From a virus, in IMG/VR virus record IMGVR_UViG_3300047478_000258, positions 1 to 64,000 of that record: DNA of 64,000 bases. One strand, 5' to 3'. Within the stretch, counting starts at the first letter, position 1. Each line of letters starts with the position of its first letter. Made by a program: the position numbers and the translations under genes. The notes below the pieces were generated by a model. That model saw only the letters and a list, made by a program, of their open reading frames with translations, was not told where the DNA came from and did no database searches. This document shows positions 11,880-15,893 of this stretch, piece after piece.

Positions 11880-12446
11880 TCACTCCTCCCTTATCCTTAT
11901 TCCACATGTGCCACGTTTCAAGACCTCAGACTCCAACTTGTCCCACTTCTCTGCCTTCTCTTTCCATCCTCGCATCACATTGAGATGGTCTTCATAGTCG
12001 TCAGAGTCTATTCCTGTCAAACTATAAAAATCATCAAGGCTTGTGCAGTCATAAAGCGTTGCTTTTCTTTTCCACTCCATGACAGTATCAACCCCCAAAT
12101 TCATCGCCTGTATCGTTACTGCATCAGCTTGAATGTCATGGAGCTTCTTTTTGAGTTCTTTGTTTTCATGGAATAGCGTGTTGTTTTCCAATACTAAATT
12201 CAACCTTTCTTCTTTGAGTTTTTCTTTCTCTTTTTGGCACTCAACAAGATGTGTTGCATGGACATCACCCTGATAAATAGCAAGCTGTGCTACCTGAAAG
12301 TTCTTTTCAGCACCCCTGTTGGCCTGCCTGAGATAGTTTTTATACATCTTGAGCTTCTCTTTGAGTGTTTGAATAATCTTAATATCCTCCATGATGCAGG
12401 CTTCAAGGGAAGCGATCTTCATTGTTAACCGTTCAAGCTCACTCAT
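11880..12446 (-). CDS. Long coiled-coil protein, 188 aa
   Basis: Start MSELERLTM at 12446 (SD AAAGGAG). Residues about 1-115 have heptad-like Leu/Ile/Lys/Glu patterning (ECQKEKEKLKEERLNL and on), a strong coiled coil; the C-terminal 70 residues are mixed and end basic. Could be a scaffold or an inhibitor that oligomerises. Overlaps the next start by 4 bp. Confidence 0.62.
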   Translation of the reverse strand: MSELERLTMKIASLEACIMEDIKIIQTLKEKLKMYKNYLRQANRGAEKNFQVAQLAIYQGDVHATHLVECQKEKEKLKEERLNLVLENNTLFHENKELKKKLHDIQADAVTIQAMNLGVDTVMEWKRKATLYDCTSLDDFYSLTGIDSDDYEDHLNVMRGWKEKAEKWDKLESEVLKRGTCGIRIREE

Positions 12447-12559
12447 TTCACTCCTTTCCACAATGCAAAAAGTATGGCTGTTCCATAAAACATAGATACA
12501 ACTCCGATGAATTGAAAAAGTAATCCTACTATAAGTAGGGCGATACGTTCAGTGCTCAT
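12443..12559 (-). CDS. Small membrane protein, 38 aa
   Basis: Start MSTERIALL at 12559 set by SD AAGGAGGATTGAG; the longer frame to 12667 runs into the RNA-like element and is not supported. Almost wholly hydrophobic (residues 6-33), one or two membrane helices, C-terminus WKGVK. Confidence 0.55.
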   Translation of the reverse strand: MSTERIALLIVGLLFQFIGVVSMFYGTAILFALWKGVK

Positions 12560-12611
12560 CTCAATCCTCCTTAGTTTATCCTCAAGAGATAAACTCGCTA
12601 AACTTTGTATA

Positions 12612-12787
12612 ATTGCAGGGAGTCGGGAGTTTAGGTCACTCGATTTACCCAGCGTGTTGTAGTCCACTGGTATACCCTTAATGCTCCCTATCCCTGCTTC
12701 CCACGGCTCGGCTCTTTTCGCTCCCTTAACCGATAGTTGTAAGAAGACACCGTGGTTTCCACCTACTTCAATGCTTCGGTGGATTAC
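12612..12787 (-). ncRNA. Structured RNA-like element, copy A
   Basis: Non-coding gap of about 230 bp between two small genes. Minus strand, 5' to 3': a distal hairpin (GGTGG/CCACC, 12760-12783), CCACGGTGTC (12746-12755), AACTATCG (12731-12738), CCGAGCCGTGG with GAAGCAGGGA (12691-12711), and CCCGACTCCCTGCAAT (12612-12627). CCACGG pairs with CCGTGG, TCGG with CCGA inside it, and GCAGGGA with TCCCTGC. Copy B at 12967-13156 keeps the blocks and pairings while the distal hairpin differs in sequence, which supports selection on structure. No known family recognised. Confidence 0.6.
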
Positions 12788-12946
12788 TTATGACCAAACA
12801 GACAATTCAAAGCCTTTCTCCTTGTCATTCTCAATGGAAAACAGGGAGAAATCCTTTCCGTCTGTAAAGTTCTGAATCTCACAAAGACTCATCCTCCAGC
12901 CCTGACTATGTTTGTAAATTTTTAATAGATAAAATTCAAATTCCAT
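12788..12946 (-). CDS. Small protein between two RNA-like elements, 52 aa
   Basis: ATG 12946, SD AAAGGAGGAG. Begins MEFEFYLLKIYKHS; ends GFELSVWS. Mixed strand/helix, acidic middle. It is bracketed by the two structured elements, and its TAA stop lies in the GTCATAAGTA block that precedes copy A; the same block precedes copy B. Confidence 0.5.
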   Translation of the reverse strand: MEFEFYLLKIYKHSQGWRMSLCEIQNFTDGKDFSLFSIENDKEKGFELSVWS

Positions 12947-12966
12947 CTCACTCCTCCTTTTAGTTT

Positions 12967-13156
12967 ATTGCAGGGAGTCGGGGTAAGCGTTTTGGATTGC
13001 CTTTCAGCGTAACTTTCCATTTGCATCTCCCGAATTTCGTTCTCCCTGCTTCCCACGGCTCGGTAAGTTTCGCCACTATTGGCCCGATAGTCAAACAAAG
13101 GGACACCGTGGGTTTTTTGCGTGAGGGATGATCTACCCACAACACGCAAACTTCAC
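12967..13156 (-). ncRNA. Structured RNA-like element, copy B
   Basis: Second copy of the element. Conserved blocks: CCACGGTGTC (13102-13111), ACTATCGG (13084-13091), CCGAGCCGTGG with GAAGCAGGGA (13043-13063) and CCCGACTCCCTGCAAT (12967-12982). The distal hairpin here is TTGCGTG/CACGCAA (13117-13149), different in sequence from copy A but at the same place. It follows directly after the stop of the gene at 13157, as copy A follows the gene at 12788, so the layout is gene, element, gene, element, gene. Confidence 0.6.
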
Positions 13157-13339
13157 TTACTTATGACATTTTATACAGAAACTACTGGTAAAAAACCTAT
13201 TATGAGACTTATAAATTAGATCATCTTTGTCTGTCTGATTATGCTCATAATAAATAAAAAGACCAAGAATTCCTACCAATATTCCTGATAAGAATATAGA
13301 TAGGAAGAATATAGCTACTGAAAACGTTTTCAGTGCCAT
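13157..13339 (-). CDS. Membrane-anchored small protein, 60 aa
   Basis: ATG 13339 with a weak SD (AGGT). One hydrophobic segment (residues 8-30), then a charged part with a CIKCHK terminus. Codons 4-7 are a dispersed palindrome (KTFS). It overlaps the upstream gene by 10 bp. Function unknown. Confidence 0.55.
   Translation of the reverse strand: MALKTFSVAIFFLSIFLSGILVGILGLFIYYEHNQTDKDDLIYKSHNRFFTSSFCIKCHK
13319..13332. repeat. Dispersed palindrome copy 7 (stop codon of one gene, codons of the next)
   Basis: Exact TGAAAACGTTTTCA. On the minus strand its TGA terminates the 49-aa HTH-like gene while the same bases encode KTFS of the overlapping membrane protein gene. Confidence 0.95.
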
Positions 13340-13479
13340 GTGCTTTTACCTAAGATATAACGAAGGGTATTCATAGAGATTTGAACTATTCTGCAGAATT
13401 CTGTATCTGAGATAGGATCTCTTGCTTCTTTAGCTTTGTTATATCTCTTAAGTATGGAAGCCTTTAACTCTTCTGACAT
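13330..13479 (-). CDS. Small HTH-like protein, 49 aa
   Basis: ATG 13479, SD GAGGAG. Helical; residues 26-44 (DTEFCRIVQISMNTLRYIL) read as a possible HTH recognition unit following a basic first helix (KASILKRYNKAKEAR). Its stop codon is the TGA of a dispersed palindrome. A candidate regulator, unproven. Confidence 0.5.
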   Translation of the reverse strand: MSEELKASILKRYNKAKEARDPISDTEFCRIVQISMNTLRYILGKSTWH

Positions 13480-13499
13480 CTTAGCTCCTCTTCCCATAA

Positions 13500-13925
13500 C
13501 TAATTCCAGGATTGGGAAGGAGGAACATTGAGCTTCTCATCAAACTCAGCTTCCGCCTGTTTAGGGTCTTTAACTTCCCCTGTCTTGAGATTAAAGCCCT
13601 CTTCTTCAAGGACTTTCTCTATCTTGGTTATTACTCTCTTCATCCTTGGAGCTTCCTTAATGGCAGACTCAATATCTTCTTTTACTGCCTTAGTCATGCT
13701 ATCTCCTACCATCTTGGCGAAGTCTTCAATAGAAGTTTCTGGCTTCTTATCTTCTGTGTAGCCAGACATATAGGCAGCAGCAGTCATATTGATGAACTCT
13801 GAGCCTATTGCAGACCCAGCTTCTACTATTTTGCCCTCATGAAGAAGATTCATTACCTTATTGAACAGTTTCTGGTAATGAAGCTCCATCATCTTCAGAT
13901 AGTTTATATCTTTGGGATTAAACAT
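13500..13925 (-). CDS. Hypothetical helical protein, 141 aa
   Basis: SD AAAGGAGGA before ATG 13925. All-helical, with a middle segment (SIEDFAKMVGDSMTKAVKEDIESAIKE) likely to form a coiled coil. It overlaps the end of the AAA ATPase by 22 bp and may be its partner or substrate. No known motif. Confidence 0.62.
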   Translation of the reverse strand: MFNPKDINYLKMMELHYQKLFNKVMNLLHEGKIVEAGSAIGSEFINMTAAAYMSGYTEDKKPETSIEDFAKMVGDSMTKAVKEDIESAIKEAPRMKRVITKIEKVLEEEGFNLKTGEVKDPKQAEAEFDEKLNVPPSQSWN

Positions 13926-15582: not shown

Positions 15583-15596
15583 TGAAAACGTTTTCA
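15583..15596. repeat. Dispersed palindrome copy 8 (stop codon of mazG-like gene)
   Basis: Exact TGAAAACGTTTTCA; on the minus strand its TGA is the stop of the MazG-like gene, in the 5' leader of the AAA ATPase gene. Confidence 0.95.
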
Positions 15597-15893
15597 GCTC
15601 TTTACAAATGTTCCATTTATAATCTGTCCCTTTCTGTTCTTAATAACTCTGAAAGCCTGCTGTAAACAGTATTCTATATCTACACCAGCAAGCTTACTAA
15701 GGATAATAAGGGTAACTGTGATATCTCCTATTGCATCTACTACTCCCAAAGTATCCTTGGTTGCTAATGCACTTGCCAACTCTCCTACTTCTTCTACTGT
15801 TTTAAGAAATTGCTTCTCAGGAGTTGATACTCCTTCTATGAATAAGCCTCTCTCTTCAGCCCAATTCTCTACATTCTCTATCAGTGTTTGCAT
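15594..15893 (-). CDS. MazG-like nucleotide pyrophosphohydrolase
   Basis: 99 aa, one MazG domain. Metal-binding acids visible: EEVGE (34-38) and D53/D57 in VVDAIGD, the ExxE..ExxD-type arrangement of all-alpha NTP pyrophosphatases. These enzymes hydrolyse (d)NTPs, and phage versions may also lower the host alarmone signal. The start at 15893 lies within the 3' end of an upstream Cys-rich gene (13-bp overlap); the stop is supplied by a dispersed palindrome. Confidence 0.8.
   Translation of the reverse strand: MQTLIENVENWAEERGLFIEGVSTPEKQFLKTVEEVGELASALATKDTLGVVDAIGDITVTLIILSKLAGVDIEYCLQQAFRVIKNRKGQIINGTFVKS

Follow-up and report, generated by a model that had tools for sequence, protein, structure and literature searches.

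A covarying pseudoknotted RNA family of phages as a candidate boundary element between co-transcribed units

Two similar structured elements lie close together among tiny genes in a stretch of viral DNA, the 64-kb window analysed here out of the 70,565-base virus record IMGVR_UViG_3300047478_000258, and they raise the question of which RNA they encode and what it does for the phage. An earlier note on this locus had described them as a duplicated structured RNA-like element of no recognised family, built of five conserved blocks in a fixed order. All five blocks were found in that order in both copies, designated A and B, on the minus strand, together with the proposed pairing partners CCACGG–CCGUGG, CGG–CCG and GCAGGGA–UCCCUGC, and the distal hairpin indeed differs between the two. 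Both copies share an exact 19-mer in the core, which has no other site in the 64 kb at ≤3 mismatches and no match in 100 dinucleotide shuffles. By querying viral contigs and species genomes, relatives of the two copies were recovered, with 71 clear members of a phage RNA family counted without near-duplicates, i.e. 66 in the alignment (A3) and five later ones.

The members share one order of parts, namely a variable and covarying helix P1, UGU, the 5′ strand of P3, a loop, AnYAUCGG, a second loop, the 3′ strand of P3, YGARAA, CCGAG and the closing strand P1′, within a core of 57–102 nt, mostly 57–85 nt. The unpaired positions UGU, AnYAU, YGARAA and AG are nearly invariant, and P2 is CGG/CCG in every member with a poorly aligned fourth pair. 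A C following UGU opens P3, and since the 3′ strand of P3 lies inside the P2 loop, the two helices form a pseudoknot. In the locus L135 (102 nt; member loci are given as L numbers), an internal hairpin is inserted in the first loop. The pairing of ACUAUCGG with CCGA that had been proposed before corresponds to P2, and the crossing helix P3 had gone unnoticed. The extent of the element had to be redrawn as well: two copies there are, but only the first ∼60–65 nt of each make up the core, and the 7-bp GCAGGGA/UCCCUGC stem belongs to a separate 3′ domain. The five-block unit consists of two modules, of which the core is conserved and the 3′ domain is lineage-specific; in other family members the 3′ domains are different from those of the window copies, or absent. 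Variant elements with UGGCC were observed at L158 and L160 inside long same-strand open reading frames (ORFs, called mechanically), the L158 flanks lengthening P1.

Pairing statistics on the 66 aligned members gave 311 Watson–Crick, 9 G-U and 10 mismatched cells out of 330 for the inner five pairs of P1, with at least four pair types at each of the four variable inner pairs; the outer pairs are weak, the outermost being unpaired in 30 of 66. The second pair of P3 is C-G in 49, U-A in 10 and A-U in 4 of 65, with 2 exceptions, and the mean P3 pair run of 3.28 exceeded that of all 2000 shuffles (mean 2.09, largest 2.48). For the whole structure, 87.5% of the cells are paired versus 63.2% in shuffles, and the covariation score of 0.554, compared with 0.130 in shuffles, was reached by none of 500 and dropped to 0.07–0.18 with the partners slid. 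Neither the pairs with changes on both sides nor the number of pair types exceeded the shuffles, as expected for strongly variable columns. The covariation tool carries the caveat that related sequences can beat shuffles without any structure; the slid-partner control and the swapped P3 pair types answer it in part. We regard this as almost certainly a real structured RNA family.

The family could be collected by internal blocks and not by overall similarity: an exact 21-nt core had no match in viral contigs, blastn of the element region against phages returned chance 38-nt matches only, blastn of copy A against plasmids returned none, and no relative was confirmed via the neighbouring AAA+ protein. 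A loose pattern of the internal blocks hit at least 120 loci in viral contigs, mostly by chance, a handful of them with a long stem around the blocks, and a tighter pattern hit 46 viral and 73 genome loci. The 126 regex matches were filtered by closing stem: those lacking a UGU-like start, having fewer than four P1 pairs (L132 excepted), cut by contig ends or exactly duplicated were dropped, and the alignment of the 40 distinct sequences that remained revealed the family anatomy. The covariance model R1, built on P1 and P2 only, matched 52 times in a set of 100 loci, the lowest score being 33.7 bits; at E < 1e-3 it had one match in another 100 loci that the loose pattern had brought in, 22 in 30 loci and 5 in 37 loci. 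R1 was run on 267 fetched loci, a set without L111–L121, 23 of the 73 genome loci and the new loci from a permutation search, and matches at E 0.01–1 were left out of the membership count. Every search pattern specified some of the core, so part of the observed invariance follows from the search design. Two scans freed P2 and AnYAUCGG, respectively, each with other blocks still fixed. The former (SSG, CCGAG not required) yielded 21 known and 2 new loci, and CGG and CCGAGC stood in all 23; the latter returned 59 loci, 27 of them members, namely 22 known ones with ACUAUCGG and five new ones with AUUAUCGG (one), AAUAUCGG (three) or ACCAUCGG (one), indicating that AUCGG is the fixed part.

Members are almost exclusively viral, with 73 viral contigs (some near-duplicates) and the window record versus two bacterial-genome contigs. 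The latter, from metagenome-assembled genomes of Anaerolineaceae (L208) and Saprospiraceae (L221), came out of 73 pattern matches in 84,980 species genomes, of which 23 were judged by the stem test alone. A single match was found in 46 of the 49 virus records behind the first loci and two in the other three, i.e. the window record, that of L131 and that of L145, whose second match is weak; two later loci, L287 and L293, also carry two copies each. Downstream of the element in L276 lies a truncated second copy, in which a 5′ part resembling the L145 element (same metagenome) is followed by unrelated sequence, and which may reflect the loss of one of two tandem copies. No cultured carrier was found with R1 among 11 named phage records (T4 and ten picked via protein or locus similarity; INPHARED as a whole was not searched), the only match at E ≤ 1 being that in Mycobacterium phage Bora (17.1 bits, E 0.13), which was taken as chance. 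L131 has a stretch in common with the genes for RF-1-domain release factors in Tunturiibacter phages Tunturi_3 and Tunturi_4, and neither of these two records has an R1 match.

Comparison with known RNAs placed the family outside them. Rfam 15, a check proposed in the earlier note, gave no match in the window at gathering score and three sub-threshold matches in the element region at E ≤ 10, all at chance level and none sensible; in six short member loci, the sole match at E ≤ 3 was to an unrelated microRNA family. As an Rfam match is lacking and covariation is present, the two outcomes that would have made the element a known family or no structured RNA both fall away, and its description as a duplicated structured RNA of unknown family holds. 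Known riboswitch families were rejected in the absence of an Rfam match, and so was the hammerhead ribozyme, whose core block CUGAnGA (as given in PMC10085705) occurs in 0 of 66 members in any block order. Small self-cleaving ribozymes at large (hammerhead, twister, pistol, hatchet, twister-sister) are alike in size, conserved core and, for some classes, pseudoknot, and also in occurring in phages and metagenomes with no fixed gene partner, according to PMC10085705; the phage family differs in block order and has no Rfam match, being a candidate by its profile. GOLLD and ROOL are likewise phage RNAs of unknown function and often near tRNA islands, according to PMC12286853, but they are hundreds of nucleotides long, and they were rejected as Rfam found them neither in the window nor in 34 member loci. 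The T4 RNAs rnaC and rnaD (species 1 and 2) are stable RNAs inside a tRNA cluster, rnaC with a T-arm-like hairpin at its 3′ end; R1 found nothing above chance in a 4.5-kb T4 stretch with filters off and nothing at E ≤ 1 in the whole T4 record. No description of the family was found, judging by titles and the first lines of abstracts, in the open-access literature on phage ribozymes and tRNA-associated phage RNAs, a search that left preprints and most subscription papers outside, and the matches listed by a literature text search with the core sequence were on the same basis unrelated. By Rfam 15 and the open literature searched, the RNA family is thus new, though it may have been described elsewhere.

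What the RNA does was approached through its genomic position at 72 sites, with the duplicate L294 and the weak L292 dropped and the second copy of L145 (19.4 bits), which is outside the 66 aligned, included. ORFs around the sites were called mechanically; at 33 sites the element overlaps an ORF of ≥50 aa, often one on the other strand. The element is on the same strand as the upstream ORF at 60 of 70 sites and as the downstream ORF at 51 of 69, and a same-strand ORF ends ≤∼20 nt upstream at 27 of 72. A same-strand tRNA called by ARAGORN lies within ∼20 nt at 6 of 72 sites versus 0.4 expected (7 by a looser rule), and members abut tRNAs on either side. Directly after the element, tRNA-like RNAs rejected by ARAGORN stand at L159, L221, L282 and L291, and at L279 the element lies within the D-loop region of a tRNA-Leu-like RNA, the acceptor GGGUGGA/UCCACCC and the T-arm of which are intact by eye. 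Acceptor-, D- and T-arm-like parts were observed in all five of these RNAs along with odd anticodon regions, such as a 6-nt loop in L282 and ∼60 nt replacing the anticodon arm in L159; they are possibly tRNA mimics or decayed tRNAs. A tRNA intron whose removal restores a canonical tRNA was rejected: upon deletion of the element with shifted ends, ARAGORN made a spanning call at 6 of 69 sites only, and all six adjoin a tRNA already called beside the element.

Closed hairpin domains follow the element in window copies A and B and at L134, L153, L135, L208, L320, L146, L132 and L126. Closing stems that start ≤12 nt after the element reach ≥9 bp at 11 of 69 sites versus 4.1% at control positions, and ≥8 bp at 19 of 69 versus 11.8%, tRNA acceptor stems being included in these counts. 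At L134, L153, L135, L208 and L320, the closed 3′ domains (∼85–110 nt, beginning 0–7 nt after the element) have in common the stem UGCCAGC(UA)/(UA)GCUGGCA, in this or a closely similar form, and are perhaps a second conserved module in some lineages. Ten downstream proteins were scanned with Pfam, giving RecA-like proteins (L129, L315), PD-(D/E)XK (L279, L323), ResIII (L123), HHH (L320) and peptide deformylase (L148), a match just under the cut-off for L134 and none for L298 and L299. A gene-specific riboswitch is unlikely given the variety of genes that follow and the copies that border on tRNAs; no consistent downstream gene or pathway was found, and this reading was rejected. The viral contig of L148 additionally carries an RNase P RNA of ∼265 nt (RF00010, L148:4936-5200, minus strand; 113.9 bits, gathering score 100) which shares its strand with the family member and several tRNAs.

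A strongly folded element that has a fixed core, stands in gaps between transcribed units of whatever kind and is tied to no one gene suggests an action on the RNA itself. Our best single guess, a tentative one, is a cis-acting boundary element that would cut its own transcript. It would sit at joints between co-transcribed units, whether mRNA/mRNA, tRNA/tRNA, or either with a tRNA-like RNA, and as a small self-cleaving ribozyme would cut its own strand inside the conserved core, thereby freeing the mRNA or small RNA downstream and giving it a defined 5′ end. That it represents a new self-cleaving ribozyme class, i.e. a P1-enclosed pseudoknot with the core UGU/AnYAUCGG/YGARAA/CCGAG, is a somewhat more tentative proposal. 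According to PMC10085705, ribozyme candidates are recognised by conserved positions, a pseudoknot or junction, about 50–80 nt and covariation, and bacterial ribozymes show enrichment around Mu-like phage genes and close to one another. Most members have such a profile (57–102 nt, conserved unpaired positions, pseudoknot and covariation), which is a profile and not proof, and the paired copies in the window, L131, L287, L293 and, weakly, L145 count in the same direction.

Several observations weigh against self-cleavage. Ten other candidates with such a profile showed no cleavage in PMC10085705, so the prior given by a ribozyme-like profile is modest. At L279, and perhaps at L095, the module is part of a tRNA-like RNA, which would be broken by a cut there, and at 26 of 72 sites a Shine-Dalgarno-like start with an ORF of ≥30 codons lies ≤75 nt downstream, which suits a translational leader as well. 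Hammerhead and twister have circularly permuted natural forms, a feature not required of a ribozyme; for the single permutation and core variant that were searched, none of 26 loci fit. Rfam found no other small self-cleaving ribozymes in the 34 member loci.

Owing to the L279 case and the leader-like positions, a bound, non-cutting module is nearly as likely as self-cleavage. Here a host or phage factor, protein or ligand, would bind the core in cis to protect an RNA end, tune translation of the next gene or guide a nuclease, a possible reading with which the many members between a stop codon and a Shine-Dalgarno-like start, the embedding in tRNA-like RNAs (L279) and an invariant core resembling binding sites agree, as do the recombination proteins encoded downstream at L129, L315, L279 and L323. 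Yet the downstream gene is not constant, and a translational operator leaves unexplained why the same core abuts tRNAs on either side. That indifference to the gene, with placement before untranslated structured RNAs, small size, phage restriction and one or two copies per record, also recalls the put RNAs of phage HK022, in which case the nascent RNA would bind RNA polymerase for read-through of terminators or untranslated tRNA stretches. Such processive antitermination is unlikely: put RNAs are two plain hairpins near early promoters, whereas the phage family forms a pseudoknot and stands mid-operon and in tRNA arrays, many copies just after a stop codon rather than behind a promoter, and a simple scan of 12400–13600 revealed no promoter-like site.

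Core and 3′ domain might instead make up one stable, trans-acting phage small RNA, e.g. a tRNA mimic or decoy like T4 rnaC/rnaD, a phage sRNA having also been raised in the earlier note, in line with the excess of 3′ domains closed by stems of ≥9 bp and with the odd tRNA-like RNAs at L159, L221, L282, L291 and L279; as many members have just a ribosome site and an ORF behind them and the 3′ domains are not conserved between lineages, we consider this quite unlikely. The duplicated, hairpin-like appearance between tiny genes could also befit a DNA-level element, such as a recombination or attachment site of the integron attC kind or an origin hairpin, which is very improbable given the strand agreement with the upstream ORF, the G-U share of 9 among the 19 non-Watson–Crick cells in the inner five P1 pairs, the covarying pseudoknot and the usual single copy per record. 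Integron attC core sites are GTTRRRY and RYYYAAC, and both are present in only 2 of 66 members, so that attC itself was rejected. Least credible of all is a transposon-associated guide RNA of the TnpB/IscB type, which the earlier note had entertained and which has nothing more in its favour than the location of a structured RNA between genes: neither a transposase nor TnpB or IscB was found among the window proteins scanned (10 with Pfam, 10 with PHROGs, part of the ORFs), no such nuclease among the ten downstream proteins, and no Rfam match to such RNAs, and the relatives are mostly single-copy phage elements next to tRNAs and a variety of genes.

In the window, the minus strand encodes phage replication proteins (RecA-like, ResIII helicase, Toprim primase, DnaB and AAA+, by Pfam), and the plus strand encodes a capsid protein (Pfam) and a terminase-like protein (tblastn to annotated phage terminases); ARAGORN called no tRNA. 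A MazG-like pyrophosphatase (15594-15893, minus strand; PHROG 1992, E 5.5e-32) is encoded in the same minus-strand region as both elements. The alternation with tiny genes described earlier was borne out, the order on the minus strand being 60-aa ORF, copy B, 52-aa ORF, copy A and 38-aa ORF, and none of the three proteins had a PHROG match at E ≤ 0.01. The start of the 38-aa ORF is an ATG inside a longer listed ORF. Coordinates are collected in the table.

Table. Positions of the two element copies and the interleaved small ORFs in the window; copies A and B are part of the R1 seed.
Feature	Position	Strand	Basis
Copy B, family core	13050..13114	-	R1 match (55.1 bits, E 1.5e-10; seed member) and covariation
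Copy B, P1	13112-13106 with 13058-13052	-	read from sequence
Copy B, UGU	13105-13103	-	read from sequence
Copy B, P3	13102-13101 with 13074-13073	-	read from sequence
Copy B, ACUAUCGG	13091-13084	-	read from sequence
Copy B, P2	13086-13084 with 13063-13061	-	read from sequence
Copy B, GCGAAA	13073-13068	-	read from sequence
Copy B, AG	13060-13059	-	read from sequence
Copy B, 3′ domain closed by GCAGGGAG/CUCCCUGC, lineage-specific, outside the family core	12970..13049	-	sequence
Copy A, family core	12698..12758	-	R1 match (51.6 bits, E 9.6e-10; seed member) and covariation
Copy A, P1	12755-12750 with 12706-12701	-	read from sequence
Copy A, UGU	12749-12747	-	read from sequence
Copy A, P3	12746-12742 with 12725-12721	-	read from sequence
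Copy A, ACUAUCGG	12737-12730	-	read from sequence
Copy A, P2	12732-12730 with 12711-12709	-	read from sequence
Copy A, GCGAAA	12721-12716	-	read from sequence
Copy A, AG	12708-12707	-	read from sequence
Copy A, 3′ domain closed by GCAGGGA/UCCCUGC, distal hairpin unlike that of copy B	12615..12697	-	sequence
60-aa ORF upstream of copy B, function unknown	13157..13339	-	ORF list
52-aa ORF between the copies, Shine-Dalgarno-like GGAGG before ATG, function unknown	12788..12946	-	ORF list
38-aa hydrophobic ORF after copy A, Shine-Dalgarno-like GGAGG before ATG	12443..12559	-	ORF list

The fold, with no Rfam 15 match and a sharply defined core, occurs in many unrelated phages. If the element cuts itself, it would be a new ribozyme class that phages would use as RNA punctuation, so that one long transcript would be divided into mRNAs, tRNAs and tRNA-like RNAs with no protein nuclease involved, and it would explain the separation of closely packed tRNAs and tiny genes in phages; otherwise it would be a widespread cis-regulatory or RNA-protecting module of phages.
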